Source: Oceanicola sp. 22II-s10i (GTDB taxonomy: Bacteria; Pseudomonadota; Alphaproteobacteria; Rhodobacterales; Rhodobacteraceae). Taken from it: a DNA stretch of 64,000 nucleotides. The stretch covers positions 470,501 through 534,500 of the forward strand of contig NZ_AQQU01000001.1 of the NCBI RefSeq assembly GCF_002210105.1. Reading direction: 5' to 3'. A program made the position numbers and the translations under genes. Positions 9,317 to 57,623 of the stretch are shown here, piece by piece. The notes under the pieces are model-generated. The model did not search any database and was not told the origin of the DNA. It was given only the letters and a program-made list of their open reading frames with translations. Numbering within the stretch: the stretch's first letter is position 1; each line of letters begins with the position of its first letter.

Positions 9317-9328
9317 GGGAGGACAGCC

Positions 9329-10066: not shown

Positions 10067-10088
10067 CGGTTCGGCAGGGGAACGGTCA

Positions 10089-10158
10089 TCCTCGAGCTTG
10101 ACCCGAGGACCTCATGACAAAGCGCAACGTCTGGAGGTCCTCGGGTCAAGCCCGAGGA
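10089..10158. repeat. 70-bp long palindrome, family R2 copy 1
   Basis: A 25-bp arm at 10089-10113 and its inverse at 10134-10158 match at 24 of 25 positions around a 20-base loop. A second copy with the same arm and loop lengths lies at 20321-20390. The arms carry the core CTTGACCCGAGGACCTC. It is in the 180-base gap between the SDR and MFS genes, which otherwise holds nothing I recognise. It could act as a transcript end structure, although no T-run follows. Confidence 0.75.
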
Positions 10159-10246
10159 CGACCGCCCTTCTGTTCGACGCACCGCGCCTCTTGCCTCTGC
10201 CACGCCGCCGAAATACCCAAGGCGTCGGGCAAAGCGGGGAGGCGCG

Positions 10247-11425: not shown

Positions 11426-11503
11426 TACGGGCCATCAGCAAAAGTCGCTTTTCCGGCGGCGGGCGTTGATCTATTAGGCGCGCCGAACGAAAGGAGTTCT
11501 TCG

Positions 11504-40647: not shown

Positions 40648-41499
40648 ATGCCCGAACTGCCCGAAGTCGAAACGGTCCGCCGTGGCCTCGCCCCCGTGAT
40701 GGAGGGCGCCGTGATCGCCCGCGCCGCCGTGAACCGGCCCGATCTGCGCTGGCCGTTTCCGGAAGGTATGGCCGAACGGCTGACCGGCAAACGGGTCGAA
40801 CGGCTGCGGCGCCGGTCGAAATACATTCTCGCCGACCTGTCCTCGGGCGAGACGCTGCTGATCCACCTCGGCATGTCGGGGCGGATGCTGGTGTCGGGCG
40901 ACCCGCTTGGGCATTTCGTGCATGACCATCCCGCGCCCGAGAAACACGACCATGTCGTGCTGGATATGGAGGGGGGCGCGCGGATCACCTTCAATGATCC
41001 CCGCCGTTTCGGTGCGATGGACCTGATGCCGACCGCCGGGGCCGAGGCCCACAAGCTGCTGGCGCACCTGGGGCCGGAACCGCTCGGCAACGCGTTCTCG
41101 GAAAGCTACCTCGCCACCGCGCTCGCGGACCGCGCCACACCGATCAAGGCCGCGCTTCTGGACCAGCGCATCGTCGCGGGCCTCGGCAACATCTACGTCT
41201 GCGAGGCACTCTACCGCGCCCGCATCGCCCCCGCCCGCGCCTGCCGCCGCATCTCCTCCGCCCGGCTCGGCGCGCTGGTTCCCATCATCCGCGACGTTTT
41301 GACCGAGGCGATCGCGGCGGGCGGATCCAGCCTGCGCGACTTCCGGCAGGCGGACGGTGAGCTGGGCTATTTCCAGCACAATTTCGACGTCTACGGGCGC
41401 GAAACAGCCCCCTGTCGCACCGAAGGCTGCGGCACCCCGATCCGCCGGATCGTGCAGTCGGGCCGGTCCTCGTTCTACTGTCCGACCTGCCAAAGATAA
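40648..41499 (+). CDS. mutM: Formamidopyrimidine-DNA glycosylase MutM (Fpg)
   Basis: A 283-residue bifunctional DNA glycosylase/AP lyase that removes 8-oxoguanine. The second of two adjacent ATGs (40648) must be the start, because the catalytic residue is the N-terminal Pro left after Met removal ([13 protein letters not shown]). Lys in [30 protein letters not shown] and the C-terminal zinc finger (Cys residues in APCRTEGCG and YCPTCQR) are all present. Confidence 0.97.
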
Positions 41500-41560
41500 C
41501 TTGAACGACCCGCGCAACGTGCTAGGGAATCCCTCCAACGCTTGCGAGGGGATGAGCTGA

Positions 41561-42337
41561 ATGGCCTACGAAACCATCGTCGTCGAGACCGAGGACAGCA
41601 TCTGCATGATCCGGCTCAACCGGCCCGACGCGCTGAACGCGCTGAACGACGTTCTGCTCGGCGAACTGGTCGACGCGCTGAAGGCCGCGCAGGCCAGCGA
41701 CAAGGTGCGCTGCATCGTCATCACCGGCTCGGAAAAGGCCTTCGCCGCCGGGGCCGACATCAAGATGATGTCCACCAAGAGCTTCGTCGACGTGTTCACC
41801 GGCGATCTGTTTGCCGCCGAATCCGATGACATCATGCGCATCCGCAAGCCGATCATCGCTGCCGTCTCGGGCTATGCCCTCGGCGGCGGGTGCGAACTGG
41901 CGATGATGTGCGACTTTATCATCGCCGCCGACACGGCCAAGTTCGGCCAGCCGGAAATCAACCTCGGCGTCATGGCCGGTCTGGGCGGCACGCAGCGTCT
42001 GACGCAGGCGGTCGGCAAGGCCAAGGCGATGGACATGAACCTGACCGGCCGCTTCATGGATGCCGACGAGGCCGAGCGCGCTGGCCTCGTGTCGCGCGTC
42101 GTGCCCGCCAAGAAGCTGATGGAAGAAGCGATGGCCGCCGCGGCCAAGATCGCCGACAAGTCGATGATCTCGGTCATGGCGGTGAAGGAGGCGGTCAACC
42201 GCTCCTTCGAGGTGCCGCTGCGCGAGGGCCTGCTGTTCGAACGCCGCGTGTTCCATTCCCTCTTCGCGACCGAGGACCAGAAGGAAGGCATGGACGCCTT
42301 CGCCTCCAAGCGCGCCGCGCAGTTCCGGGACAAGTGA
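41561..42337 (+). CDS. Enoyl-CoA hydratase
   Basis: A 258-residue crotonase-family enzyme. The CoA/oxyanion segment is [12 protein letters not shown] and the second oxyanion block is [16 protein letters not shown]. The two catalytic Glu positions are in CELAM and [20 protein letters not shown]. It hydrates trans-2-enoyl-CoA in beta-oxidation. GAGGGGATGAGCTGA lies before the ATG. It is 61 bases downstream of mutM and converges on the TRAP operon with 4 bases between stop codons. Confidence 0.94.
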
Positions 42338-42341
42338 CCGC

Positions 42342-43646
42342 CTAGCGCAGCAACCCCGGCAACCATGTCGCCAGCGACGGCACCGCCGCGACGATCAGCA
42401 TGGCCATGAGGAACAGGCCGACAAAGGCGATGGAGGCCCGGTAGAGGTCGCTCATCGCCACATCGGGCGCCGCACCGCGAAACGCGAACATGGCATAGCC
42501 GAAGGGCGGTGTGATGCCGCCCACGGTCACGTTCAGCAGCATCAGCAGCCAGAACCACAGCGGGTCCAGTCCGAGCACGTTGATCAGCGGCAGGTAGATC
42601 GGGATCACGATCATCATCACCGCCACCTGGTCCACGAACAGGCAGAAGGCAAAGACCATCGCCATCATGGCGAGGATCATCAGCCACGGCGCAAGGTCCA
42701 GCCCCGACACCAGCGCGGTGATCAGCCGGCTGGCCCCGCTGATGGCCAGCAACTGGCTGAACAGCGTGGACGAGGCCATGATGATCAGGATCATCGCCGT
42801 CATCAGTGCGGCGGACCTGAGCGCCGACAGGATCAGCGCGATGCTCAGTTGCCGAAACAGCGCAGCGATGACCACGGCGCCGGAAACGCCGATCGCGGCG
42901 CTTTCGGACGGCGTCGCCACACCCAGCAGGATCAGCCCCACGACCAGCGCGATCAGGACGGCGAAGGGGACGCAATGGATGACGGCCCTCAGCACCGAGA
43001 TGCGCACATCCGGCGCCAGCGCGGGCGGGGCGAGCCGCGGGTTCAGCGCGATCCGCAGCATGGCATAGCCGATGAACAGCGCGGCAAGCAGCAGCCCCGG
43101 CAGCACCCCCGCCACCAGAAGCCCGGCCACCGAGACATTGGCCAGTGTCGCGATGATGATGACCAGCACGCTCGGCGGGATGATCGGGGCAAGGCTCGCG
43201 CCGCCGAGGATCATCCCGATGGACAGCGTCCGGTCGTAGCCCCGCTGGACCATGCCCGGATAGATGGACCGGGCCATCATGGCAGCCACCGCCATGTTGG
43301 ATCCCGACAGGGCGCCGAAGATCGTCGAAAGCACGCCGGCCAGCACGTACTGCCGCCCCCGGACACGACCCACGAAGCGGTCCACCGCCTCGAACAGCAG
43401 GTGCGCGGCGCCGGAGCGGAACATGATCTCGCCCATCAGGACGAACAGCGGGATCGCGGTGAGCTGGGCATTGGTGGTGGTCGAAAACAGCGAATTGGCC
43501 AGCATCCCGAAGGCTTTCGGCCCCAGCAGGATCGCAACGCCCGCCAGGTTGATCGACAGGAAAGCGAGAAAGATCGGCATGCCCGACATGAAGAGCGCCA
43601 GCACCAGCAGCGCCGCGCCAAGCAGTGTGGAGGGGTCGGACATCAT
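42342..43646 (-). CDS. TRAP transporter large permease (DctM type)
   Basis: A 434-residue inner-membrane protein with about 12 helices. The DctM signature is seen in FVLMGEIMFRSG, LSGSNMAVAAMMA, LGGASLAPIIPPSVLVII and TPSESAAIGVSGA. It forms the ion-driven channel of a tripartite ATP-independent periplasmic transporter. It overlaps the small permease gene by 4 bases and is the last gene of the minus-strand TRAP operon. Confidence 0.94.
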   Translation of the reverse strand: MMSDPSTLLGAALLVLALFMSGMPIFLAFLSINLAGVAILLGPKAFGMLANSLFSTTTNAQLTAIPLFVLMGEIMFRSGAAHLLFEAVDRFVGRVRGRQYVLAGVLSTIFGALSGSNMAVAAMMARSIYPGMVQRGYDRTLSIGMILGGASLAPIIPPSVLVIIIATLANVSVAGLLVAGVLPGLLLAALFIGYAMLRIALNPRLAPPALAPDVRISVLRAVIHCVPFAVLIALVVGLILLGVATPSESAAIGVSGAVVIAALFRQLSIALILSALRSAALMTAMILIIMASSTLFSQLLAISGASRLITALVSGLDLAPWLMILAMMAMVFAFCLFVDQVAVMMIVIPIYLPLINVLGLDPLWFWLLMLLNVTVGGITPPFGYAMFAFRGAAPDVAMSDLYRASIAFVGLFLMAMLIVAAVPSLATWLPGLLR

Positions 43647-44185
43647 GGTGCCGTGACCTCAGCCGCCGGGTCCGGAGCGGCGATGGCCAGCATCAGGAAT
43701 TGCGCCGCCGACAGCCCCAGCCCCCATACGATCCAGACCGAGATCACGGCCTTGGGCACCGGGATCGCCGCCATCATCCGCACGCCCCGGCTGGCCTGCC
43801 GCAGCGTCTCCTCGCCCGCGATCCATGCCATGACGAGGCAGATCACGGCGCCCAGAACGGCGATGGCCTGACCGGCCAGCACGCGCCCCCGCAGCGGCAG
43901 CCGTTCCAGCAGCACCGTCACCGCCACATGCCCGCCGTCGCGCGTCAGGCGCGGCAGGGCGAGGAAGGCAACGATCAGCAGCAGGTAAGAGACCAGCTCG
44001 GCCGACCACCGGGTCGGCGCGCCAAAGGCGTAGCGGGTGACGACCTCGTAGTTATAGGCCACCACGATCAGCGCCAGCCCCGTCATCGCGATCCAGAGTC
44101 CGATCTCGGTCAGGCCATGGATGGCCTGACCGATCAGACGGAACCGGCCCCGAGGGAAGGGTATCCCGGAACCGGGCCTCGTCAT
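43643..44185 (-). CDS. TRAP transporter small permease (DctQ type)
   Basis: A 180-residue protein with four helices (for example IAMTGLALIVVAYNYEVVTRY and LLLIVAFLALPRLTRDGG). The DctQ family motif EVVTRYAFGAPTRWSAELVSY is present. It pairs with the large permease and overlaps both neighbours by 4 bases, giving a coupled dctP-dctQ-dctM order. Confidence 0.92.
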   Translation of the reverse strand: MTRPGSGIPFPRGRFRLIGQAIHGLTEIGLWIAMTGLALIVVAYNYEVVTRYAFGAPTRWSAELVSYLLLIVAFLALPRLTRDGGHVAVTVLLERLPLRGRVLAGQAIAVLGAVICLVMAWIAGEETLRQASRGVRMMAAIPVPKAVISVWIVWGLGLSAAQFLMLAIAAPDPAAEVTAP

Positions 44186-45174
44186 TCCGTCAGGCCCGCC
44201 GCCTTGGCCTGCTCGTGCAGGGCGGTCGCCGCCTCGCCCGAGCTTTCCTTGGCGATCGCCCAGATCCCGGCGTCAAAGGCGTTCTGCACCTTGGTGGCCA
44301 TCTCGGGGCTCAGCATCTCGACCTTGACGCCCAGTTCGTCCAGCTTGGCATCCTCGTCGGCCTGAATGGCGTTGCCCAGCCACGGCATTTCCAGTTCGGT
44401 CAGCTTGCCGGCCTCAAGCAGGTAACCCTGCTCCTCGGCGTCCAGACCGTTCCAGACATCCAGATTGATGAAAACCGGCTGCGTGGCCGCCCCGAAAGTC
44501 GGGCGCAGGCGATAGGCCGCGACCTCGTAATGCTTCATCGAGATCATTCCGGCGGCCGGCCACCCGGCTCCGTCGACGATACCGGTCTGCAGGGCCGAAT
44601 AGATCTCGGACCCCGGCAGCACCACCGGTTCGGCGCCAAGCGCCTCGATCACGCCGAAATAGGTGGGTGTGCCGCGCACCTTGCGGCCGGCCAGGTCGCC
44701 CGCCTCGGACAGCGGTTCCTTGGTGAACAGGTGATAGCCGGCCATCGAGACGGACATCATCGCGACCATCTTGAGGTTGTGGGTCTCCTGATAATAGGTG
44801 TCGACGCTGTCCCAGACGCCCGAGGCGCGGCGGGCGACCGGATCGACGTCGATCGCATCCACGGCCAGCGCCAGCCCACCGTTGCCGGCGTGGAATACGG
44901 GATGGGTATAGAGGGCGTCGAACACACCGTTGGACACGGGCTCCAGCTGTTCGAAGATCGACACCGCTTCGGGGCCGAACACGGTGAAGGTGGTCTTGCC
45001 GCCGCTGATGTCGGCCACGTTGTCCATGTAGCGTTGCAGAACGGAATAGGTCGGCAGCTGCGAGGTGTCGAAGCTGGACAGCACCCGGATGTCGCTTGCC
45101 ACCGATGCGGTTGCGGTCAAGCCGCCGATCAGCAGCGCACCCAGGCCCCGCGTAAATGTTCCAAGTGCTTGCAT
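44182..45174 (-). CDS. TRAP transporter substrate-binding protein (DctP family)
   Basis: A 330-residue periplasmic binding protein with a signal peptide of about 26 residues ending in ASVASD. DctP features include GRKVRGTPTYFGVIEALGAE, which contains the Arg that usually clamps a carboxylate, and ALQTGIVDGAGWPAAGMISM. The ligand is therefore probably an organic acid. GGAG lies before the ATG at 45174. A 20-bp dyad shared with the amidase and ridA promoters is 43 bases upstream. Confidence 0.93.
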   Translation of the reverse strand: MQALGTFTRGLGALLIGGLTATASVASDIRVLSSFDTSQLPTYSVLQRYMDNVADISGGKTTFTVFGPEAVSIFEQLEPVSNGVFDALYTHPVFHAGNGGLALAVDAIDVDPVARRASGVWDSVDTYYQETHNLKMVAMMSVSMAGYHLFTKEPLSEAGDLAGRKVRGTPTYFGVIEALGAEPVVLPGSEIYSALQTGIVDGAGWPAAGMISMKHYEVAAYRLRPTFGAATQPVFINLDVWNGLDAEEQGYLLEAGKLTELEMPWLGNAIQADEDAKLDELGVKVEMLSPEMATKVQNAFDAGIWAIAKESSGEAATALHEQAKAAGLTE

Positions 45175-45216
45175 GTTGCTCTCCTGTTGGATCGCCGTTT
45201 CCGGCTACAGCTATTT

Positions 45217-45236
45217 AAGTAAATTTATACTTACAT
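45217..45236. promoter_or_regulatory. TetR-type operator copy at the TRAP promoter
   Basis: AAGTAAA-TTTATA-CTTACAT fits the 7-6-7 dyad AAGTAAR-N6-YTTACWT found three times around this TetR-linked locus. It is 43 bases upstream of the TRAP binding-protein start codon. Confidence 0.6.
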
Positions 45237-45365
45237 AACTGCCAAGCCGCCGCGCCACGAGGCCAGCCCAAATGTCAGGATGGGTGCAAGCTTTGTCGGT
45301 ATTGCGCAAAACTGCTGGTTCTTCGCACAAATTTACGGCAGAGCTGGGGACAAGGCCTCGCAAAT

Positions 45366-45385
45366 AAGTAAGTGTATTTTTACAT
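45366..45385. promoter_or_regulatory. TetR-type operator copy at the amidase promoter
   Basis: AAGTAAG-TGTATT-TTTACAT, the same 7-6-7 dyad, 53 bases upstream of the amidase GTG. The 264-base divergent gap 45175-45438 that holds this and the previous copy is AT-rich compared with its surroundings and contains no gene. Confidence 0.6.
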
Positions 45386-45438
45386 ATTCGGACAGACAGC
45401 ATTCCTGATGCTGGGCACGAAACGAATCGGAGAGACAG

Positions 45439-46671
45439 GTGACAGGCCAACCAGTGCGACACACCGACGACACGAACGGGCAGCGGGTCCGGGCCGCACT
45501 GGCGGTATGGGAACGGCACATTCACGCATTCGTCGCGCTTGCGGATGACGAACCGGCACCGGCAACCGGTCCGCTGGCCGGGGTCAGCGTCGGGGTCAAG
45601 GACAACATCGACGTCATCGGCCTGCCGACGCGCAACGGCAGCGCCGCCTGCGCCGATGCGGTCCCGGCTGCGCAGGACGCCCCCGTCGTCGCAGCGCTGC
45701 GGAACGCCGGCGCGTGGATCGCAGGCAAGACAACGACAACCGAGTTCGCCTTTACCGACCCGACTGACTGCCGGAATCCCTATGACACGGCCCGGTCTCC
45801 TGGCGGGTCGAGCAGCGGATCCGGCGCGGCGGTCGGGGCGGGCATCGTGGATGTGGCGCTCGGCACCCAGACAGCCGGCTCGCTCTGCCGCCCCGCCGCC
45901 TACTGCGGGGCGGTCGGGCTGAAGCCGAGCTTCGGCCTTGTGTCCACGCAGGGCGTCACGCCCCTCGCGCCCAGTTTCGACACGGTCGGGATCATCGCGA
46001 GGTCAGTGGCGCTGGCCGGGGCGTGCCTTGCCGCCGCTACTGGCCAGCCCCACGACCAGCCGCGACTGCCTGCTCTACGCGTCCGCCGCATCCTGCCGCT
46101 TGGCGCCGCGCCTTCGGATGGCGCACTCGCGGCGCTTGAGGACGCGGAGCTGACGCTTGGCGGATTGACCGGCATGCTGTCCCCCGCCGATGCGATGCCT
46201 GTGGATGACATCGTGGCCCATCATCGCAGGGTCATGAACCACGAAGCGCATGCCGCGCATCCCCACCTGACCGAACCCGACCGCCTGCCGATGCTCAAAC
46301 CCCGGTTTCGCGAGGCGCTGCTGGACGGCCGACGGATCACCCCGGCCGAAGCGGCGGAGTCGCGCCGCGCGCTTGACCGGGCCAGGTCAGCGTTCTGGGA
46401 CCGGCATGCGGACACCGACGTGCTGCTGTCCCTGCCGGTGCCGGACGGCGCGCCGCTTATAGACGGGACGACCGGTTTTCAGAACTGGCTGACGCCGTGG
46501 ACCGTGTTCGGCGGCCCGCTCCTGTGCCTGCCCTGGGGGGCGGACGACCTGGGCCGGCCGCGGTCGGTGATGCTGGCGGCCCGCCCCGGTGGTGACCGGA
46601 TGCTGCTGGCCCTCGGCGCCGCGCTCGAGGCGCTGGCGCCGGACCTGCCCCGCCCGCGACCCCGCGGCTAG
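45439..46671 (+). CDS. Amidase (amidase-signature family)
   Basis: A 410-residue Ser-cisSer-Lys hydrolase. Lys54 lies in VGVKDNID, the cis-Ser in ARSPGGSSSGSGAA near residue 124, and the nucleophile Ser148 in GTQTAGSLCRP. The length is short for the family (about 450-500). I place the start at a GTG at 45439, preceded by GGAGAGACAG. It cleaves a carboxamide to acid plus ammonia in the cytoplasm. It is divergent from the TRAP operon and ends in a 4-base overlap with ridA. The shared operator indicates it acts on the compound brought in by the TRAP system. Confidence 0.88.
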   Translation: MTGQPVRHTDDTNGQRVRAALAVWERHIHAFVALADDEPAPATGPLAGVSVGVKDNIDVIGLPTRNGSAACADAVPAAQDAPVVAALRNAGAWIAGKTTTTEFAFTDPTDCRNPYDTARSPGGSSSGSGAAVGAGIVDVALGTQTAGSLCRPAAYCGAVGLKPSFGLVSTQGVTPLAPSFDTVGIIARSVALAGACLAAATGQPHDQPRLPALRVRRILPLGAAPSDGALAALEDAELTLGGLTGMLSPADAMPVDDIVAHHRRVMNHEAHAAHPHLTEPDRLPMLKPRFREALLDGRRITPAEAAESRRALDRARSAFWDRHADTDVLLSLPVPDGAPLIDGTTGFQNWLTPWTVFGGPLLCLPWGADDLGRPRSVMLAARPGGDRMLLALGAALEALAPDLPRPRPRG

Positions 46672-47138
46672 GGCGTCAGCCGGACGATCGCATCGACTTC
46701 GACCGCCGCTCCGCCGGGCAGACCCGACACGGCAACCGCCGTCCGCGCATGCCAGCCCGCCTCGCCGAACAGCGCGATGAAGACCTCGGTCGCGCCATTG
46801 ATGACCTGCGGGCTGCTGGCGAACCCGGTGCCGGCGCAGACGAAACCGCCAAGCCGCAGCACGCAGTCGACCCGGTCGAGATCGCCGTCACAGGCCTGCC
46901 GCAGGCGATAGACCAGGTTCAGCGCGCAGATGCGGGCGGCCGCCTGCCCGCGCGCGACGTCATCTGCGGTGTCGAGGACGGGACCGGCATGAGTCACCGC
47001 GCCGTCCCATTCGCAGATCTGTCCGGACAGATAGACCACCTGCCCGTCACGCCGGAATGGCAGGAACTGGCCGCGAGGCGTCCAGTCGGGTGGCAGGGAC
47101 AGGCCCATCTCGGCCAGTTTTCGTTCGGCAGTCGACAT
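46668..47138 (-). CDS. RidA/YjgF-family protein
   Basis: A 156-residue member of the RidA superfamily, in the longer subgroup with an N-terminal extension (MSTAERKLAEMGLSLPPDW). Core features are VVYLSGQICEWDG and the C-terminal AVSGLPGGAAVEVDAIVRL. The usual Arg of true imine deaminases, in the segment before the last strand, is not obvious: FGEAGWHARTAVAVSGLP has its Arg displaced. It may deaminate reactive enamine/imine or aminoacrylate-like intermediates or have another small-molecule role. A 20-bp dyad lies 12 bases upstream of the ATG. Confidence 0.85.
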   Translation of the reverse strand: MSTAERKLAEMGLSLPPDWTPRGQFLPFRRDGQVVYLSGQICEWDGAVTHAGPVLDTADDVARGQAAARICALNLVYRLRQACDGDLDRVDCVLRLGGFVCAGTGFASSPQVINGATEVFIALFGEAGWHARTAVAVSGLPGGAAVEVDAIVRLTP

Positions 47139-47149
47139 CCGCGCCCCTC

Positions 47150-47169
47150 AAGTAAAAGCATGTTTACTT
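47150..47169. promoter_or_regulatory. TetR-type operator copy at the ridA promoter
   Basis: AAGTAAA-AGCATG-TTTACTT: a perfect dyad with 7-bp arms that extends to 8 bp with flanking C and G. It is 12 bases upstream of the RidA-family ATG, close enough to block transcription start or elongation. It is the best-formed of the three copies. Confidence 0.7.
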
Positions 47170-47200
47170 GATGCGGTCACACGGTCACGCCGTCAAGGGC

Positions 47201-47863
47201 TCACCCGTCGCGGACCCCGAGATAGCTCAGGATGACGTCGATTGCGTGCGCACGACGAACCGCCAGCCAGTCGGGATCGGTCAGATCCTGACCGAAGACG
47301 GCACCAAGCGTCGCGGCATTGTTGAGGTGATGACCGGACAGGGCCACGATGGTCAGGTAGAGGTTCAGCGCGTCAGGCTTGCGGGAAAACACCCCCTGCG
47401 CATGCCCCCGTTCGATCAACTGCGCGATCGAGGCGATCAACGGCTGGGACATGTCGCGGATCATGTGCGAGCGGCGGATGAACTTGCCGTCTAGAAGGTT
47501 CTCGTTCCGCGTAAGCTTCACGAAATTCGAGTTATTCGCGAAATGGTCGAAGGTGAACTCCACCAGCTTTCGCGCCATCGCCGCCGGGTCGCCTTCGGTC
47601 AGGTTCAGCTCTGCCTCGCGGTTGCGGATCGAGGCGAAGACGCTGTCGAGAGAGGCGAGATACAGCTGCTCCTTGCTGCCGTAGTAGTGGTAGAGCATCC
47701 GGGCGTTGCACTTGGCCGACCTCGCGATGCGTTCGACCCGAGCACCATGAAATCCGTGCTCGGCGAATTCGCGCACGGCGACCGACAGGATCTCGGCCTG
47801 CGTGCGTTCGGGGTCGCGGCTGCGAATGGTCTCGGGTTTCCGCTGACCGCTCGGCTGGGGCAT
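47201..47863 (-). CDS. TetR-family transcriptional regulator
   Basis: A 220-residue repressor-type protein. Residues about 18-70 are the TetR helix-turn-helix (RTQAEILSVAVREFAEHGFH, GARVERIARSAKCNARMLYHYYGSKEQLY). The C-terminal helical ligand domain includes FVKLTRNENLLDGKFIRRS. It lies directly upstream of ridA, with the dyad in their shared gap. A single AAGTAAA half-site is 13 bases before its own ATG. It is the natural candidate to bind the dyads at the TRAP, amidase and ridA promoters. The inducer is probably the TRAP/amidase substrate or product. Confidence 0.9.
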   Translation of the reverse strand: MPQPSGQRKPETIRSRDPERTQAEILSVAVREFAEHGFHGARVERIARSAKCNARMLYHYYGSKEQLYLASLDSVFASIRNREAELNLTEGDPAAMARKLVEFTFDHFANNSNFVKLTRNENLLDGKFIRRSHMIRDMSQPLIASIAQLIERGHAQGVFSRKPDALNLYLTIVALSGHHLNNAATLGAVFGQDLTDPDWLAVRRAHAIDVILSYLGVRDG

Positions 47864-47876
47864 GTCTCGTCCACTT

Positions 47877-47883
47877 TTTACTT
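47877..47883 (-). promoter_or_regulatory. Half-site of the TetR-type operator before tetR
   Basis: AAGTAAA on the minus strand, 13 bases upstream of the TetR-family ATG. The matching second half is not present at the 6-base spacing, so autoregulation would be weak or absent. Confidence 0.3.
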
Positions 47884-47948
47884 GAACTTATGCGGACGGA
47901 CGCGGGCGGCGTCAACATGAGGCGGCGGAGGCACCTCGGGGCCTGCGA

Positions 47949-48407
47949 TCAGAAAAGCCCGTCCGGCACGGCCATGTTCGCCGGTCGCGGCCCCTCCGGC
48001 CAGTGCAACAGGCGCGCGCCTTCGTCGATCGGCACATCGTTGATCGAGGCGTGACGTTCGGCCATCAGCCCTTCGACCGTGAACCGCCAGTTCTCGTTGC
48101 CATGGGACCGTGTCCAGTTGCCCGCGCCATCGTGCCATTCATACACGAACCGCACCGCGATCCGGTCCTCGCTCCATGCCCAGAGCGTCTTGATCAGGCG
48201 ATAGTCCTGCTCCCGCATCCATTTCCGCACCAGAAAGCCGTGAACCGCGTCGCGTCCGCTCAGGAACTCCGACCGGTTCCGCCAGCGCGTGTCCTCGGTA
48301 TAGGCCAGCACGACGCGGTCGGGATCGCGGGTGTTCCACGCGTCCTCTGCCATGCGGACCTTCTGGCGCGCAGTTTCTTCGGTGAAGGGGGGAAGCGGGG
48401 GACGCAT
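47949..48407 (-). CDS. DUF1348/SnoaL-like (NTF2-fold) protein
   Basis: A 152-residue protein of the DUF1348 family, an NTF2-like alpha+beta cone fold. Diagnostic blocks are [40 protein letters not shown] and [20 protein letters not shown]. Function is unknown, and such proteins are often small-molecule binding or isomerase-like. It is 50 bases downstream of cynS in the same direction, so it may be the last gene of the cyanate operon. Confidence 0.9.
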
Positions 48408-48457
48408 GACGCACTCCTGACACGGGCCGCGTTATGGTGCGGCCCGCAGACCCGGAC

Positions 48458-48928
48458 CTACCAGGAGTTGTAGCCGAGGTACTTGCCCGACATCTCGATC
48501 TTGACGCGGTCGCCCTTGGGGTTGGGGACGCGGGTGATCTGCATGTCGAAGTCGATGGCCGACATGATGCCGTCGCCGAACTTCTCGTGGATCAGCGCCT
48601 TGATCGTGGGGCCGTAGACGCCGACGATTTCATACAGGCGATAGATACAGGGATCGGTCGGCACGGTCTGTTCCCAGACCTTGGTCGGGCTTTCGGCCAG
48701 CACACCCGCGGCCTCCTGCGGCAGGCCCATGACCGACACCAGCGTCTCGGCCTTGTCCTGCGGCATGGCGTTCATGCCCATGCAGGCCGAATGGGTCCAG
48801 ACGGGCGACATGCCGATCTTTTCCGCGATCTCCTCCCACTTCATGCCGGCCTGCTTCTTGGCCGACAGGATCATCATGGTGACGTCCTCTTTGGTCATCA
48901 TCTGGGGCACCTCGAAACTGTCTTTCAT
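48458..48928 (-). CDS. cynS: Cyanate hydratase (cyanase)
   Basis: A 156-residue enzyme that converts cyanate and bicarbonate to ammonia and CO2. The decameric active-site residues are all present: Arg97 and Glu100 in YRLYEIVGVYGPTIKALI and Ser123 in GDGIMSAIDFDMQ. The N-terminal helix-turn-helix-like bundle is normal. GAGGAAAGACCC precedes the ATG. It is directly downstream of a cyanate/nitrate-type ABC importer, which gives a complete uptake and detoxification or nitrogen-acquisition unit. The carbonic anhydrase at 14.9 kb could recycle the bicarbonate. Confidence 0.97.
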   Translation of the reverse strand: MKDSFEVPQMMTKEDVTMMILSAKKQAGMKWEEIAEKIGMSPVWTHSACMGMNAMPQDKAETLVSVMGLPQEAAGVLAESPTKVWEQTVPTDPCIYRLYEIVGVYGPTIKALIHEKFGDGIMSAIDFDMQITRVPNPKGDRVKIEMSGKYLGYNSW

Positions 48929-48967
48929 GGGTCTTTCCTCGAATGTCGCGGCAGGGGCCGCTGGCCT

Positions 48968-49879
48968 TCAGTTGGTCACGGCACGCAGCCGCGGGTTCTC
49001 CTCGCCTCCGCCCCCGGTGGGGGCGGACTCCGTCATGTCGATCCGGACGGTCTCGGGCGTCTGCGCCTCGCCGTTCGACGGGCGACCCGACAGTTCCTTC
49101 GACCGGCGGCCGAGGAACTGCACCAGATGGTTGCGGATCGCGTAGTAGTTCGGGTGCTCGACGATCTCGGTCCGGTTGCGCGGGCGCGGGATCGTAATCT
49201 CGACGCTTTCCGCAACGCGGGCGTGCGGGCCGTTGGTCATCAGCAGGATGCGGTCGGCCAGCAGGATCGCTTCGTCGATGTCATGAGTGATCATGAACAC
49301 CGTCTGCTGCGTTCCGCTCCAGATCTTCAGCAGCTCATCCTGGATCGTGCCCCGTGTCAGCGCGTCCAGAGCACCGAAGGGTTCGTCCAGCAGCAGCAGC
49401 TTGGGGTGGTTGGCAAAGGCCCGCGCGATGGAAACACGCTGCCGCATACCGCCAGACAGCTGCGCGGGCTTGCGGTGGATGGCGTCCCCCTCCAGCCCGA
49501 CCATCGCGAGGTATTTCTCGGAATGCTCGGTGACCTTGGCCCTGGACCAGCCGGGATTGCGCGCCTTGACCCCGAACATCACGTTGCGCAGGGCCGACAG
49601 CCACGGCAGCAGCGAATAGTTCTGGAACACGACGCCCCGGTCCAGACTGGGGCCCGAGACCTCGAACCCGTCCATCTTGACCACCCCCGACGTGGGCTCG
49701 GCCAGACCGGCGAGGATGTTCATGATCGTCGACTTGCCACAGCCTGAGTGGCCCAGGATGCAGACGAATTCGCCCTTCTCGACACCGAACGTGGCATCCT
49801 CGAAGACCGTCATAGTCCCACCCTTCCCGTCCGGGAACTTCTGGGTCAGGCTTTCGACGCTGAGAAACGGTTTGGACAT
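48968..49879 (-). CDS. Nitrate/cyanate-type ABC transporter ATPase
   Basis: A 303-residue ATPase of the NrtD/CynD/SsuB group. Walker A is GHSGCGKST, the Q-loop lies in FQNYSLLPWLSALRNV, the signature is LSGGMRQR and Walker B is LLLLDEPFGALD. The C-terminal tail has ITIPRPRNRTEIVEHPNYY as in NrtD. It is third in the minus-strand run of binding protein, permease, ATPase, cyanase, with 10 bases after the permease gene. Confidence 0.93.
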   Translation of the reverse strand: MSKPFLSVESLTQKFPDGKGGTMTVFEDATFGVEKGEFVCILGHSGCGKSTIMNILAGLAEPTSGVVKMDGFEVSGPSLDRGVVFQNYSLLPWLSALRNVMFGVKARNPGWSRAKVTEHSEKYLAMVGLEGDAIHRKPAQLSGGMRQRVSIARAFANHPKLLLLDEPFGALDALTRGTIQDELLKIWSGTQQTVFMITHDIDEAILLADRILLMTNGPHARVAESVEITIPRPRNRTEIVEHPNYYAIRNHLVQFLGRRSKELSGRPSNGEAQTPETVRIDMTESAPTGGGGEENPRLRAVTN

Positions 49880-49889
49880 CGCTTGGCTC

Positions 49890-50720
49890 CTATTCCGCGT
49901 AGGCCACGGCCCGCTGGAGCGCCCCGAAGGCCGAATCCAGCAGCATGCCGACGACGCCGATCATGAGGATCGAGAAGATGACGGAGGTCAGGTCGAGGTT
50001 GTTCCACTCGTTCCAAACGTAGTAGCCGATGCCGGTCCCACCGACGAGCATCTCGGCCGCGACGATGACCAGCCACGCGATCCCGATGGAAATCCGCATC
50101 CCCGTGATGATCGTCGGCGCAGCGGCGGGCAGGATCACGGTGAACGCGGTCTTCAACGCCCCCAGTTCATGCGTCCGGGCGACATTGACCCAGTCCGACC
50201 GCACCCCGGCGACGCCGAAGGCGGTGTTGATCAGCATGGGCCAGATCGAACAGATGAAGATGACGAAAATCGCCGATGCCTCGCTGTCCTGGATGATGAA
50301 CAGCGCCAGCGGCATCCACGCCAGCGGCGAGATCGGGCGCAGCACCTGGATGAACGGGTTGAGCGCCTTGTAGGCCACCGGCGACATCCCGATCAGGAAG
50401 CCGAGCGGCAGCGCCACCAGCGCGGCCAGCGCGTAGCCGGTCAGCACCCGGTAGATCGAATAGCCGATCTGGATCCCGATCCCCTTGTCGTTCGGACCGG
50501 CATCGTAGAACGGGTTCGACAACTGTTCCCACGCCTTGCCCAGCACCTGGCTGGGGGGCGGCACCCCGGCCTTCTGCGCGCCGCCGCCGGTCAGGCGTTC
50601 GTATTCGGTCATCTCCTCCAGCGTTTTCTGTGCCGGGATGGCGGCCTCCCACGCGAGGAGACCGACAGCCAGCAGCACGATCGAAAGGATGGCCGCCTTC
50701 TGGTTGAGACTGAGCGTCAT
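49890..50720 (-). CDS. Nitrate/cyanate-type ABC transporter permease
   Basis: A 276-residue inner-membrane permease with six to seven helices. NrtB/CynB-like features are VLRPISPLAWMPLALFII, GVRSDWVNVARTHELGALKT (the coupling loop) and GTGIGYYVWNEWNNLDL. It lies 3 bases after the binding-protein gene. Confidence 0.93.
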   Translation of the reverse strand: MTLSLNQKAAILSIVLLAVGLLAWEAAIPAQKTLEEMTEYERLTGGGAQKAGVPPPSQVLGKAWEQLSNPFYDAGPNDKGIGIQIGYSIYRVLTGYALAALVALPLGFLIGMSPVAYKALNPFIQVLRPISPLAWMPLALFIIQDSEASAIFVIFICSIWPMLINTAFGVAGVRSDWVNVARTHELGALKTAFTVILPAAAPTIITGMRISIGIAWLVIVAAEMLVGGTGIGYYVWNEWNNLDLTSVIFSILMIGVVGMLLDSAFGALQRAVAYAE

Positions 50721-50723
50721 GGG

Positions 50724-52091
50724 TCAGCCTTTGCCGATGGCAAAGCTCTTCACGTATCCCACGGGATCGGCGGGATCGAAGGTCTTGCCCATGATCGTGT
50801 GCGACTTGTACGTGACCTCGGGCGCGTCGTAGCCGAGATCGTTCATGATCTTCTTGCAGTCCGCGGCGAGGTAGACCTGTTCGGCCACCGCCTTGTAGTC
50901 GATTTCGTTCTCGATATAGCCCCAGCGTTTCATCTGGGTCAGGATCCACACGCCCATCGAGTGCCAGGGGAACGGATCGAAGTCGATCCGGTCAGGCACC
51001 TGCTTCACCTCGCCCAGACCGTCGGCATAGGTGCCGGTCAGCACCTGCTCGATCACCGGGACCGGCTGGTTGAGGTAGTTCGTGGGCGCGATCGCGGCCG
51101 AGATTTCCTTGCGGTTTTCCGGGTTCCGGGCGTATTGCGTCGCGTCGATGATCGACTTGAGCAGCGCGCCGTAGGTGTTCGGCAGTTCGGTCGCGAAGGA
51201 CAGCGGCGCGGCGAAGGCGCAGCAGGGATGGCCTTCCCAGATGTCCTTGGTCAGCGTGTGGATGAAGCCGATGCCCTCCCAGACCGCGCGCTGGTTGAAC
51301 GGGTCGGGCGAGAGGTAGCCGTCGAGGTTGCCGGCGCTGAGGTTGGCGACCATCTCCGGCGGCGGCACGACGCGGATCTGGATGTCGACATCCGGGTCCA
51401 GACCATGCTCGGCCACGTAGTAGCGCAGCAGGAAGTTGTGCATCGAGTATTCGAACGGCACGCCGAAGGTGAAGCCCTTCCACTGCTTGGGGTCGCGCTT
51501 GTCCTTGTGATCGTTGTGCAGAACGATCGCCTGTCCGTTGATGTTCTCGACGGCCGGCATGATGTAGGGCGTGGCGGTGGAGCCCGCGCCGAGCGTCATC
51601 GCCAGCGGCATCGGGGTCAGCATGTGGCTGGCGTCGTATTCACCGGCCAGCGACTTGTCCCGCGCCACGGCCCAGCCTGCGGTCTTGATGACCTGCGCGT
51701 TCAGCCCGTGCTTTTCATAGAACCCCATCGGCTGCGCCATGATGATCGGCGTGGCGCAGGTGATCGGCACGAAGCCGATGTTCAGGTCGGTCTTCTCGGG
51801 CGTGCCCAGTTCGTCGAGGATCGCGGCCTTGGCCTTTTCGATCGGGAAGACGGAAGAGAGCGCGGCGGCGAAGGTGCCACCACCGACCAGCCCCATGAAG
51901 GAGCGGCGGCTCAGATCGTTGCCGCCGAACATGGACCGGACGACGGCGCTTTCGACCGCGCGCTCCAGCATCCCGTCCGAGGTGTCCGGCGACGCGGCCG
52001 TGCCCGCCGAGGTGCTGCAGCTGGCGCAGCTGCACCCTGCGCCGTGACGCAGATCCGAGTTGTGATCGAAGGGGTTCCCCAGACTCTTCAT
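50724..52091 (-). CDS. Nitrate/cyanate-type ABC substrate-binding protein, Tat-exported
   Basis: A 455-residue CmpA/NrtA-type binding protein. A twin-arginine signal (LSRRSFMGLVGGGTFAAAL) begins only at about residue 60. Before it comes an unusual N-terminal extension with a cysteine cluster, HGAGCSCASCS. The mature domain includes LNIGFVPITCATPIIMAQPMG and FTFGVPFEYSMHNFLLRYYV. Tat export with a Cys-rich leader hints at cofactor or metal handling before export. It is the first gene of the cyanate operon. Confidence 0.92.
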   Translation of the reverse strand: MKSLGNPFDHNSDLRHGAGCSCASCSTSAGTAASPDTSDGMLERAVESAVVRSMFGGNDLSRRSFMGLVGGGTFAAALSSVFPIEKAKAAILDELGTPEKTDLNIGFVPITCATPIIMAQPMGFYEKHGLNAQVIKTAGWAVARDKSLAGEYDASHMLTPMPLAMTLGAGSTATPYIMPAVENINGQAIVLHNDHKDKRDPKQWKGFTFGVPFEYSMHNFLLRYYVAEHGLDPDVDIQIRVVPPPEMVANLSAGNLDGYLSPDPFNQRAVWEGIGFIHTLTKDIWEGHPCCAFAAPLSFATELPNTYGALLKSIIDATQYARNPENRKEISAAIAPTNYLNQPVPVIEQVLTGTYADGLGEVKQVPDRIDFDPFPWHSMGVWILTQMKRWGYIENEIDYKAVAEQVYLAADCKKIMNDLGYDAPEVTYKSHTIMGKTFDPADPVGYVKSFAIGKG

Positions 52092-52251
52092 TGATTACGT
52101 CTCCCGTGTTGGTGCCCGATCAGTCTTGGCCGACCGTGTGTCATGCAATCAGGCTAGCGGAGGGGCGGCGGCAGGGTCACAGTTTTCTGGGATGACACCG
52201 GTTAGGAAAAATCATTTATTTTCAAATGCTAAGCAAACAGGCATCGCGGTC

Positions 52252-52289
52252 CGTAATTACGATATTTCGTGTTTCACGATTTTTCGTAA
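52252..52289. promoter_or_regulatory. Overlapping palindromes in the divergent cyanate-regulator promoter
   Basis: CGTAATTACG (52252-52261) is a perfect 10-bp palindrome. It overlaps a 33-bp inverted repeat (52257-52289) with arms TTACGATATTTCGTG and CACGATTTTTCGTAA matching at 12 of 15 positions. The pattern amounts to several TTACGA/TCGTAA half-sites. It lies 31 bases before the regulator ATG and about 160 bases from the importer start, in a 229-base AT-rich divergent gap. No -24/-12 promoter is visible. Confidence 0.55.
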
Positions 52290-52320
52290 CATGAATGCTG
52301 CGCTGCGGTAGACTGGGGTC

Positions 52321-54171
<1,851 letters not shown>

Positions 54172-54180
54172 CCGCGCCCG

Positions 54181-55044
54181 TCAGGCCATCCGGCGGGTGA
54201 GGATCGCATTGACCTCGTCCGCCGCCTGATACTGCACCCAGTGGCCGACCTCGGGAATGACGTGGAACTCTGCCCCCGGCTTCCACGCGGCGACATTCTC
54301 GCGCCGCTGGTCGAGGTAGCGCCAGGTCAGCGCATCGCGGCTGCCGTAGATCACCGTCAGCTCGGCCTCCATCCGCTGCAGATCGCCCGGCACGTCGAGC
54401 GAGGAGAACAGGCCCTTGTTCCGCCCGCGCGCCAGTTCCGCATGGGCCATCTGGATCGCCACCGCCTCGTCCGTCACGCTGTCCGGTCCGGTCAGCATCA
54501 GCAGCCCGACGTTCTGCGCATGCGCCGCCGCCCGGTGTTCAGGAATGGGCATCCCCCGCCACTTGGCCAGCCTGTCGTTCACCCCGTGCCGGTCGCCCAA
54601 CAGGGGCGAGCCCAGCATGGCCAGCCGCTCGACACCGGCCTCCACATGCTTCGCGGTGATTGCACCGATCACGCTGCCAAAGGAAAAGCCCGCCATGCGC
54701 ACCGGTTCTCCCGGCGCCAGCTCGGCCAGTGCGGCGGCGACGATCCGGGCGAAATCTTCCAGATCCTCCGTCTCGAGCGAATCCGACTGGCCGAAGTTCG
54801 GCAGGTCCGCCGCCATCACCCGGTATCCGGCATCGACCAGCGCATCGACGTTGCGGACCCAGTGCATCCATGACCCGTGTCCGCCGTGGAACAGCGCCAG
54901 CGGCCTGCCCTCGCCCCAGATGTGCCAGTGCATCCGCGTCGCGTCGCCCGTGACGCGCTGTTCGGACCGGGCCTCCAGATCGTGGATCCACTGGGGCAGG
55001 GTCGGGATGTCGACGATGTCGTCGTCAAAATCGTGGCTCAGCAT
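54181..55044 (-). CDS. Alpha/beta hydrolase
   Basis: A 287-residue alpha/beta-hydrolase-fold enzyme. The oxyanion segment is LALFHGGHGSWMHWVRN, the nucleophile elbow GFSFGS (Ser in the GxSxG), and the catalytic His lies in VIPEVGHWVQYQ near the C-terminus. The acidic residue is probably in VIYGSRDALTWRY. Meta-cleavage-product hydrolases and esterases share this pattern, and the substrate is unknown. It converges on the regulator gene (9 bases) and is divergent from the SDR at 55201. Confidence 0.88.
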   Translation of the reverse strand: MLSHDFDDDIVDIPTLPQWIHDLEARSEQRVTGDATRMHWHIWGEGRPLALFHGGHGSWMHWVRNVDALVDAGYRVMAADLPNFGQSDSLETEDLEDFARIVAAALAELAPGEPVRMAGFSFGSVIGAITAKHVEAGVERLAMLGSPLLGDRHGVNDRLAKWRGMPIPEHRAAAHAQNVGLLMLTGPDSVTDEAVAIQMAHAELARGRNKGLFSSLDVPGDLQRMEAELTVIYGSRDALTWRYLDQRRENVAAWKPGAEFHVIPEVGHWVQYQAADEVNAILTRRMA

Positions 55045-55200: not shown

Positions 55201-55995
55201 ATGCGGTTTCAGGACCAGTCCACAATCGTCACCGGCGGGGCATCCGGCATCGGCGCGGCATTGGCACGCGCGCTGGCCGCCGAAGGGGCCAAGGTCGCCG
55301 TCGCGGATCTGAATGCCGATGGCGCCAAGAAAGTGGCGGACGAAATCGGCGGTATCGCGGTGCCCACGGACGTCCGAAGCCGCGATGCCATCGCCGCATT
55401 GATCGCGGCGGCCGAGGCGGCGCATGGCCCGATTGACCTGATGTGTTCGAATGCCGGGATCGCGACGGGCGTGGACACCACCTTCACCAACGCCGCCGGG
55501 GCGGACCCCGCCGAATGGCAGCGGGCGTGGGAGGTCAACGTCATGGCCCATGTCCACGCTGCCGCGAACCTCGTGCCACAGATGATCGCGCGGGGCGGCG
55601 GACGGTTCCTGCACACGGTCAGCGCGGCGGGCCTGCTGAACCAGATCGGCAGCGCGATCTACGGCACCACCAAGCACGCCGCCGTCGGCTTCGCCGAGAA
55701 CCTCGCCATCAGTCACTATTCCGCCGGAATACGGGTTTCGATCCTCTGTCCGCAGGGCGTGGACACGCCGATGCTGGACGGCATGGGCGGCGACGGGCGC
55801 AACGGGCCACAGGCGGGCGACGGGCTGATCTCGGCCGCCGACTGCGCCGCGGCGGCGCTGGATGGCGTGGCCGAGGGGCGTTTCGTGATCCTGCCGCATC
55901 CGCAGGTTGCGGACTACATGCAGCGCAAGACCGCCGATTACGACCGCTGGATCGCGGGCATGGCGAAGTTCCAGAACAGGCTCTATTCCGTGTAG
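55201..55995 (+). CDS. SDR-family oxidoreductase
   Basis: A 264-residue classical SDR. It has VTGGASGIGAALARAL, NAG in MCSNAGIATG, catalytic Ser in HTVSAAGLLNQIG, and Tyr/Lys in IYGTTKHAAVG. AGAGGGAGGCACGAAAG precedes the ATG. The last 13 bases overlap the end of the convergent sulfatase gene. It is divergent from the alpha/beta hydrolase gene and the two may serve one pathway, but there is no direct evidence. Confidence 0.9.
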   Translation: MRFQDQSTIVTGGASGIGAALARALAAEGAKVAVADLNADGAKKVADEIGGIAVPTDVRSRDAIAALIAAAEAAHGPIDLMCSNAGIATGVDTTFTNAAGADPAEWQRAWEVNVMAHVHAAANLVPQMIARGGGRFLHTVSAAGLLNQIGSAIYGTTKHAAVGFAENLAISHYSAGIRVSILCPQGVDTPMLDGMGGDGRNGPQAGDGLISAADCAAAALDGVAEGRFVILPHPQVADYMQRKTADYDRWIAGMAKFQNRLYSV

Positions 55996-57623
55996 ATCCG
56001 CCCCGCCGGCCCCCGGAATTTCGAGGTCGCGTCCTCCGGCACCTCGCTGCCGTCCCAAAGGAACGGCATGATCCCCACCCGCAGCGCGCGGCCCCGCATC
56101 TTGTTCAGGTCGGCCTCGGACCGCGTGACCCGCTGCGCGTTGCGCAGGGACCAAGCGTGCAGATGACGATACAGCCGCGCGATCTCGTCGGCACACTCGG
56201 GGTCCGCACCCCGGTCGTGGAATTCGTCGGGGTCGGTCTGCAGATCGAACAGCATGGGCCGAAAACCGCCCTCGAAATGGATCAGCTTCCACCGCCCGTC
56301 GAAACACATGAACATCCGCGCGTCATCGGACGTGATCCCCAGTTTTGCGCGCATCGGCGTGACCGAGTAATCGTATTCGCTGATCGCCACCTCGCGCCAG
56401 TTTTCAGGCTCTGTCCCCTGCAGAAACGGCTGCAGCGACCGCCCCTCGACGATATGCCCCGGCACCTCGCCGCCCGCCGCCTCGATGAAGGTCGCGGCCA
56501 GGTCGATGGACTCCACCAGCGCGTCGCAGGTGGTGCTGCGCGTCGCGTCGGCCTCGGCGCGCGGATCGTAGACGATCAGGGGGATCTTCACCGACGGCTC
56601 GTGGAACATGTCCTTTTCGCCTAGCCAGTGATCGCCCAGGTAATCGCCGTGATCCGAGGTCAGCACGATCATCGTGTCCCGGATCGCACCCGTCTCCTCC
56701 AGCCGGTCGAGGATGCGGCCAAGCTGGTCGTCGCATTGCTTGATCAGCCCCATGTAGGCCGGGATCACCTTGTCCCGCACCTCGTCGCGCGAAAAGGCAC
56801 TGGCGATCATGTTGCCCATGTAGGCGCCATAGACCGGGTGCGGATCCTGCCGTTCGAGGTCGGAGCGCACGGCGGGCGGCACGTCGTCCGGGCCGAACAT
56901 GTCGTGATAGGGCGCGGGGACGATGTAGGGCCAGTGCGGCTTGATATAGCTGACATGTGCGCACCACGGGCCCTCGGCGGTCTCCATGAACTCCAGCGCG
57001 CGATCGGTCAGCCAGGGCGTCTCGCTGTCCTCCTCGCGGATGTTGGCGGGCAGGTCGGCGTTCTGAAAGAACCAGCCCGACGCGATCTCGCCTTCGGAGG
57101 CCCCGGCGTTGGCGTTGTCGTGCCAGGGGTTCGCGGCCTCGTAGCCCTTGGCCTTGAGATACTCGTTATAGGGGCTGCGCTTGCGGTCGTAGAAGCCGTC
57201 CGGCCCCTCGCCCCAGAGCCCGTCGTCGCGGACCACGGCATCGAAGCCGCATTCGCTCTGCCGCGCGCCGATGGTGGTGTCGGGGGCGAGGCCCAGGCGC
57301 TCCATCCCCTCGGCATCGGCCACCATGTGGGTCTTGCCGATCAGGTAGCAGCCCATGCCGATCTTGCGCAGGTGATCGCCGAGTGTCTGCTCTCCGACCC
57401 GCAGGGGAAAGCCGTTCCACTGCGCCCCGTGGGAGGAGGCGTAGCGGCCAGTGTAGAACGACATCCGGCTGGACCCGCAGACCGGCGACTGGACGTAGGC
57501 GCGGGTGAAGCGGACGCCCATTCCGGCGACCCGGTCGAAGTTCGGTGTCCTGAGTTTCGGATGACCGGCGCAGGACAGGTAGTCCCATCTCAGCTGGTCA
57601 TACATGATGAACAGGATGTTCAT
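55983..57623 (-). CDS. Sulfatase/phosphonate-monoester-hydrolase family enzyme with atypical CGSSR site
   Basis: A 546-residue alkaline-phosphatase-superfamily hydrolase. The N-terminus NILFIMYDQLRWDYLSCAG supplies metal ligands. GKTHMV and TSDHGDYLGDHWLGEKDMFHE complete the site, and YIKPHWPYIVPAPYHDMF is typical of the phosphonate monoester hydrolase/choline-sulfatase branch. The formylglycine motif, normally C-x-P-x-R, is here CGSSR in SPVCGSSRMSFYTGR, with Ser in place of Pro. No signal peptide is seen, so it is probably cytosolic. No formylglycine-generating enzyme or anaerobic maturase is in the window. Confidence 0.88.
   Translation of the reverse strand: MNILFIMYDQLRWDYLSCAGHPKLRTPNFDRVAGMGVRFTRAYVQSPVCGSSRMSFYTGRYASSHGAQWNGFPLRVGEQTLGDHLRKIGMGCYLIGKTHMVADAEGMERLGLAPDTTIGARQSECGFDAVVRDDGLWGEGPDGFYDRKRSPYNEYLKAKGYEAANPWHDNANAGASEGEIASGWFFQNADLPANIREEDSETPWLTDRALEFMETAEGPWCAHVSYIKPHWPYIVPAPYHDMFGPDDVPPAVRSDLERQDPHPVYGAYMGNMIASAFSRDEVRDKVIPAYMGLIKQCDDQLGRILDRLEETGAIRDTMIVLTSDHGDYLGDHWLGEKDMFHEPSVKIPLIVYDPRAEADATRSTTCDALVESIDLAATFIEAAGGEVPGHIVEGRSLQPFLQGTEPENWREVAISEYDYSVTPMRAKLGITSDDARMFMCFDGRWKLIHFEGGFRPMLFDLQTDPDEFHDRGADPECADEIARLYRHLHAWSLRNAQRVTRSEADLNKMRGRALRVGIMPFLWDGSEVPEDATSKFRGPAGRIYTE

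Follow-up and report, generated by a model that had tools for sequence, protein, structure and literature searches.

Do the genes around a group of matching inverted repeats in the genome of Oceanicola sp. 22II-s10i form one regulon, and what would such a regulon serve? The repeats lie in a window of 64,000 nucleotides (contig NZ_AQQU01000001.1, positions 470,501 to 534,500; positions below count from the first letter of the window). Around them are six genes, here called the module, that encode a tripartite ATP-independent periplasmic (TRAP) transporter (dctP, dctQ and dctM), an amidase, a Rid-family protein (ridA) and a TetR-family regulator (tetR). Judging from sequence conservation, the RutR-like TetR protein and the dyad operator very probably form one regulon. 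The module as a whole is best explained as a system for TetR-controlled uptake and breakdown of a small carboxylated amide or ureide, with deamination by the Rid protein, and we consider this explanation probable.

A sequence-only reading of this DNA had placed three 20-bp dyads upstream of dctP, the amidase gene and ridA, and a half-site upstream of tetR. All four elements are present at these positions (Table 1), and the dyads fit the consensus AAGTAAR-N6-YTTACWT without mismatch. The span from 45217 to 47883 agrees with the sites, and the genes presumably controlled extend from 42342 to 47863. With up to two mismatches, the consensus gave 7 strand-matches in the window, at 4 overlapping or separate places that all belong to the module locus, compared with a mean of 0.08 matches (largest value 2) in 100 shuffles of the window. 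In the whole genome (5,114,559 bases), the three dyads were the sole places with at most one mismatch, and the reversed control pattern was found once. Specificity was gone when three mismatches were allowed (144 strand-matches versus 455 for the control). AAGTAAR or YTTACTT, counted in the 64-kb window only, starts five times (45217, 45366, 47150, 47163 and 47877), always in the locus: once each in dyads 1 and 2, twice in dyad 3 and once upstream of tetR. A chance origin of the dyads was rejected on the basis of the shuffles, the genome-wide uniqueness at up to one mismatch and the half-site count.

Orthologous clusters were sought through the regulator. A TetR search of 394 genomes in the family gave 28 matches at E up to 1e-40 (own genome counted), and in the 3.6-kb stretches around them RidA and amidase adjoin TetR only in genome G360 (TetR 62% identical); one further stretch (L037, TetR 41%) contains a partial amidase. 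A profile scan of genome contigs with the TetR alignment confirmed at least 509 relatives, of which the best 80 were analysed; two of these, from Rhodobacteraceae metagenome-assembled genomes (L102 and L103), bear the cluster. The order tetR-ridA-amidase-dctP is thus found in three other genomes, as far as their contigs reach, with protein identities of 55-74%. L102 and L103 encode TetR at 62%, RidA at 66-67% and amidase at 59-60% identity; L103 also has DctQ and DctM, and the L102 contig stops just past dctP. In G360 the cluster is split over contigs L098 (TetR 62%, RidA 66%, an amidase piece at 55%) and L222 (an amidase piece at 61% and the three TRAP subunits; see Table 1 for identities).

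Dyads occur at the same three promoter positions in all three clusters (9/9), each with 10-12 of the 12 half-site letters. For the positions upstream of ridA, amidase and dctP, in this order, the scores are 12, 11 and 10 in L103, and 10, 10 and 11 in both L102 and G360. The counterparts of dyad 1 start at 8986 (L103), 3382 (L102) and L222:581, those of dyad 2 at 8811, 3227 and L222:425, and those of dyad 3 at 7016, 1431 and L098:7306. No further site of such quality was found in L102, L103 or L098, with 0-0.02 expected per locus. Upstream of tetR, the half-site AAGTAAG is present in L102, and none was seen in L103. The sequence-only reading, which took the genes for one regulon with a TetR-type operator, had named missing dyads upstream of orthologues as evidence that would speak against it; all three are retained, and this conservation of position lends the main weight to the regulon case.

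The association of dyad and tetR extends into the wider TetR clade. We scored sites up to 400 bp from the tetR match of the best 80 relatives, with 29 permuted half-sites as controls. Of the 80 loci, 4 carried AAGTAA-N8-TTACTT with all 12 letters, 12 reached 11/12 or better and 18 reached 10/12 or better; the permuted half-sites gave means of 0, 0.14 and 0.69 and maxima of 0, 2 and 5, respectively. Sites with 11/12 letters accompany 7/16 relatives at 45% identity or more versus 5/64 below. When spacers from 0 to 15 were tried, 11/12 was reached most commonly at 8 (12 loci), and otherwise at 12 (8 loci), 4 (5 loci) and 13 (1 locus); we read spacers 4 and 12 as registers displaced by GTAA repeats. 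Four close TetR orthologues have an ABC (ATP-binding cassette) transporter as neighbour, and among them L099 has a 12/12 site and L079 two sites at 10/12. Beyond the 400-bp zone, perfect copies of the pattern also lie upstream of an amidase match and tetR in three Burkholderiales loci (L137:5864, L141:5828 and L154:5864).

In the 22 genomes of the genus search, AAGTAA-N8-TTACWT without mismatch occurred at the three sites of the module and at a single place in each of the genomes G659, G661 and G662, and the reversed control was absent from the own genome. The perfect site in G659 lies about 170 bp upstream of a TetR relative with 38% identity. A sister genome also has two adjacent dyads starting AAGTAACC (L223:3936 and 3969), and the 8 kb fetched around them contain no TetR relative.

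The regulator itself is a TetR-family protein by its TetR_N (52.9 bits, cut-off 24) and TetR_C_29 (122.8 bits, cut-off 26.2) domains. Its structural model (predicted local distance difference test, pLDDT, 92.8) has Corynebacterium TetR and RutR entries as neighbours (Z 19.2-20.9, with 20.9 to 3npi and 20.0 to RutR 4x1e). The scores against the RutR equivalog models stay below their cut-offs (53.5 bits versus 368 for TIGR03613, 41.5 versus 230 for NF011584). In the recognition helix, N53, Y58, H59, Y60, G62 and K64 are invariant among 31 TetR relatives.

The nearest solved structures of the amidase are malonamidase E2 entries, which align with E 2.4e-56 and cover residues 18-397; the family that comes next, at E 8.8e-32, covers only a part. 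K54, S124, S148 and R151, the last being the Arg at position Ser+3, are invariant in an alignment of 4 sequences and correspond to the Lys, Ser, Ser and Ser+3 Arg of malonamidase E2. The nucleophile Ser is followed by LCRPAA in the module amidase and in those of L102, L103, L079, L080, L082, L085, L086 and L110, by LIRPAA in L081, L083 and L087, and by VIRPAA in malonamidase E2. The Ser+3 Arg is therefore common to the module amidase and the 11 related cluster amidases that could be read with the signature expression, which did not read those of L084 and L098. The own genome encodes 10 other amidases, and all 8 readable ones have the Arg at Ser+2. The Ser+3 Arg of malonamidase E2 is Arg158, which we take to hold the substrate carboxylate.

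The transporter is of the DctP type, with P, Q and M subunits that all exceed their Pfam cut-offs; Arg167 of DctP (KVRGTP) is invariant in three sequences, and the closest solved DctP by sequence is 4mnc. Genes next to the distant plasmid-borne TetR relatives (38-44% identity; sugar-type and other ABC genes, dehydrogenases) gave no substrate hint, and neither did the neighbours of plasmid DctP relatives (31-43%). The sequence features of amidase and transporter modestly favour a carboxylated amide or ureide as substrate, and within this class a malonamate-type primary amide with a carboxylate, or a ureide, is likely to be the leading candidate. The sequence-only reading had likewise proposed a carboxylate-bearing amide, which the closeness to malonamidase E2, the Ser+3 Arg and the DctP-type TRAP transporter support moderately; the reactive enamine or imine that it named as product is something we only infer.

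Four solved relatives were found for the Rid protein, two named (PA0814 and ACIAD3089, both Rid1) and two without a name. Its Arg132 occupies the position of the HAR.AV Arg in PA0814, the Arg expected of an imine deaminase, and is invariant together with Glu147 in an alignment of 7. According to the available parts of PMC4433059 and PMC5619798, the catalytic Arg of Rid imine deaminases (RidA, Rid1-3) is the equivalent of RidA Arg105, and the latter, with its Table 3, gives PA0814 and ACIAD3089 as Rid1 members with imine deaminase activity. The accessible portion of PMC8113886 describes the Rid1-3 activities as being of undetermined physiological relevance.

RidA and amidase also occur together without the TRAP transporter. 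Among 390 genomes of the order, a RidA search with an E limit of 1e-35 gave 36 matches (own counted), and in 11 genomes besides the own one RidA is 70-80% identical. Nine of these (L079-L087, genomes of the same family, RidA 73-80%) have an amidase with 52-60% identity tail-to-tail with ridA; the other two (L088 and L089) are without amidase. In the nine clusters the pair adjoins two ABC ATPase matches (Opp-type ABC) and an allophanate-hydrolase-type enzyme, whose signature GRVPAA is present in 9/9 and whose NCBIfam assignment was obtained for L079 only. L079 further encodes a TetR relative (69%), an ABC transporter with NMT1-type binding protein, and two proteins below the respective cut-offs, one SnoaL_2-like (26.6 bits, cut-off 27) and one PuuE-like (130 bits, cut-off 425). 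In L084, nitrile hydratase genes in three frames (alpha, beta-C and beta-N; 9176-11677) lie directly upstream of the orthologous amidase gene and thus point to a primary amide; opposite them are Opp ABC, allophanate-hydrolase-type and RidA genes, and a LysR gene is also present. The L084 arrangement resembles a nitrile or cyano-compound pathway. In a Rhodopseudomonas metagenome-assembled genome (L110), TetR (48%), amidase (42%) and RidA (54%) occur with an Opp-type binding protein and an 11/12 dyad between the amidase and transporter genes. Since amidase and Rid stay associated next to different transporters, and in most cases where this TetR regulator is absent, we regard their association as functional.

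From these elements the following pathway can be proposed. The RutR-like TetR protein would repress by binding the AAGTAA-N8-TTACTT dyads upstream of dctPQM, amidase and ridA, and a small metabolite, either the imported compound or a product, would free the dyads from TetR; as the sequence-only reading suggested, one ligand might in this way govern import, hydrolysis and the Rid step. The TRAP transporter would import a small carboxylated amide or ureide, which the malonamidase-E2-like amidase would hydrolyse with release of ammonia. The Rid protein, putatively of the Rid1 type, would then deaminate an imine or enamine arising in the pathway, and the amidase product may be the compound on which it acts. 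The resulting keto acid or semialdehyde would enter central metabolism, and the nitrogen would serve growth. We raise only tentatively the possibility that the Rid step is obligatory in this pathway.

Several observations weigh against this explanation. No site with at least 10/12 letters was found inside 400 bp for 62 of the best 80 TetR relatives, and L100 and L101, two of the four close orthologues with a neighbouring ABC transporter, reach 9/12 at best. In the 21 sister genomes the perfect pattern occurs at 3 places (4 strand-matches) and the reversed control gives 6 strand-matches; because these counts fall below the control, the pattern alone is not above background outside the own genome. 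When one mismatch was allowed in six genomes of related loci, the pattern exceeded the control in G360 and G665 and not in the other four. At the dyads, no sigma-70-like promoter and no terminator was found. No dyad within one mismatch was detected in L079-L087, and 8/9 of these clusters show no TetR relative in the 17 kb fetched; the enzyme pair therefore does not require the regulator. On the side of the chemistry, the DctP model, built from three sequences, has a pLDDT of 34.9 and no readable ligand, and Pfam shows no oxidase or pyridoxal 5'-phosphate enzyme able to form an imine among the six module genes. Finally, tetR is preceded by a half-site only, not by a full dyad. The last point would fit a regulator encoded elsewhere that recognises the dyads in place of the module TetR, as would the situation in G661 and G662, two of the three sister genomes that have a perfect site, where the fetched stretches of 8.0 and 4.4 kb showed no TetR relative. 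Such a regulator appears highly improbable, given that the dyads are unique in the genome and adjoin tetR, and that the linkage of site and tetR among the best 80 relatives far exceeds the controls.

Two alternatives concern the chemistry. One, narrower than the proposed pathway and compatible with it, is a Rut-like ureide route, with import of a ureide, of the ring-opened pyrimidine type or another, that resembles ureidoacrylate or ureidomalonate, an amidase that yields a 3-aminoacrylate-like enamine, and a Rid protein acting like RutC. The Corynebacterium TetR and RutR entries nearest to the TetR model are in keeping with this idea, and rut shares the logic of amide hydrolase plus Rid deaminase (available text of PMC8113886); the allophanate-hydrolase-type enzyme beside the pair in L079-L087 and the sub-cut-off PuuE-like protein of L079 point the same way. 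We nevertheless judge it unlikely, as the RutR model score is far below the cut-off, the six module genes include none that is RutA- or RutB-like, the amidase comes from a different family, and the module in the window has no allophanate hydrolase. The other alternative regards the Rid protein as a general clean-up passenger and the chemistry as hydrolysis of a plain carboxylated amide, for example malonamate to malonate and ammonia. In its favour, malonamidase E2 is the closest solved enzyme and has the Ser+3 Arg in common, and the nitrile hydratase genes of L084 could fit a route from cyanoacetate through malonamate to malonate. A mere passenger would hardly be expected tail-to-tail with the amidase gene in 9/11 genomes with other transporters, or with its own dyad upstream of ridA in 4/4 clusters, and we doubt this alternative as well.

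Table 1. Genes and operator elements of the module (window positions).
Feature	Position	Strand	Remarks
dctM, TRAP large permease	42342..43646	-	Pfam DctM 227.6 bits; 72% identity in L103 and G360
dctQ, TRAP small permease	43643..44185	-	Pfam DctQ 73 bits; 59% identity in L103, 60% in G360
dctP, TRAP periplasmic binding protein	44182..45174	-	Pfam DctP 91.1 bits; 70% identity in L103 and 73% in L102 by one alignment, 72-74% in the two by cluster comparison; 72% in G360
Operator dyad 1, AAGTAAATTTATACTTACAT	45217..45236	.	42 bp upstream of dctP
Operator dyad 2, AAGTAAGTGTATTTTTACAT	45366..45385	.	53 bp upstream of amidase gene
Amidase-signature hydrolase, malonamidase-E2-like	45439..46671	+	Pfam Amidase 197.7 bits; 1ock E 2.4e-56
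ridA, Rid-family protein (PF14588, YjgF_endoribonc)	46668..47138	-	Pfam above cut-off
Operator dyad 3, AAGTAAAAGCATGTTTACTT	47150..47169	.	11 bp upstream of ridA
tetR, TetR-family regulator, RutR-like fold	47201..47863	-	TetR_N and TetR_C_29
Operator half-site TTTACTT	47877..47883	.	13 bp upstream of tetR start

Within the module, ridA and the amidase gene are tail-to-tail with a 4 bp overlap, and the dctP-dctQ-dctM genes (45174-42342) are divergent from the amidase gene. An Rfam search of 41000-52000 at the gathering threshold matched no RNA element. The module is part of an accessory segment. At an E limit of 1e-40, 3/21 sister-genus genomes have a TetR match, the best being 36-38% identical. 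The mutM-ECH flank is matched in 22/22 genomes, and the roughly 1.5 kb past this flank contain no module gene and no cyanase-ABC genes in the other 21. In 9/21 sister genomes, this stretch of about 1.5 kb past ECH contains the short-chain dehydrogenase that lies from 55201 in the window; 3 of these 9 have the hydrolase (54181-55044) preceding it and 3 others the sulfatase (55983-57623) after it. Since parts of the hydrolase-dehydrogenase-sulfatase series directly follow ECH in these nine, about 11.8 kb (42338-54180) was either gained in Oceanicola sp. 22II-s10i or lost at the same position in the sister genomes. Besides the TetR module, the segment contains DUF1348 and cyanase genes, those of an NMT1_2-type ABC transporter and one for a sigma-54 activator; its G+C content is ordinary, apart from one A+T-richer intergenic part. 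Adjoining tetR, the DUF1348, cyanase and NMT1_2-type ABC genes (47949-52091) make cyanate use likely. Membership of the cyanase and ABC genes in the regulon was rejected: they have no site within one mismatch, and L103 has phosphate-transport genes on the tetR side.

The closest known system in outline is rut of E. coli, which likewise combines a TetR-type repressor, a transporter, an amide hydrolase and a Rid-family deaminase, and whose RutR fold the TetR model resembles. The module differs by its 20-bp operator AAGTAA-N8-TTACTT, compared with a RutR box of about 16 bp (available part of PMC10891134), by an amidase-signature enzyme in place of RutB, by the TRAP transporter, by the absence of a RutA-like gene and by a TetR protein far under the RutR model cut-off. 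The module thus parallels rut and is not a member of it. One could go further and suppose an evolution separate from rut, in which a RutR-like TetR clade would use the operator AAGTAA-N8-TTACTT to govern exchangeable importers (TRAP, NMT1-type ABC or Opp) grouped about a conserved amidase-Rid pair, and an enamine that the amidase unmasks from a carboxylated amide or ureide would be deaminated by Rid in one obligate two-step reaction; this extension is speculative and, on balance, rather improbable. With malonamidase E2 (1ock and others) the module amidase shares homology over most of its length, the motif GTQT.GS..RP and the Ser+3 Arg; it differs in being part of a TRAP-Rid regulon. PA0814 and ACIAD3089 are of the same Rid family as the module Rid, which retains the catalytic Arg but is tied to an amidase. 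The L079-L087 clusters differ from the module in their transporter, the extra allophanate-hydrolase-type gene and a TetR relative in L079 only.

The word amidase is absent from the main text of PMC5619798 and of the Rid gene-clustering paper PMC4433059. The acesulfame amidase cluster was considered as a precedent and set aside: in the available text of PMC10413263, malonamidase appears in the reference list only and RidA nowhere. A literature search conducted partly by titles and abstract starts, and with few subscription papers, returned no description of a TetR-TRAP-amidase-Rid module. For a clade of RutR-like TetR proteins that is still uncharacterised, the dyads would offer an operator open to test. 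The module would also tie a Rid protein, putatively of the Rid1 kind, to a single partner enzyme, and through this pair a physiological Rid substrate may become directly searchable.

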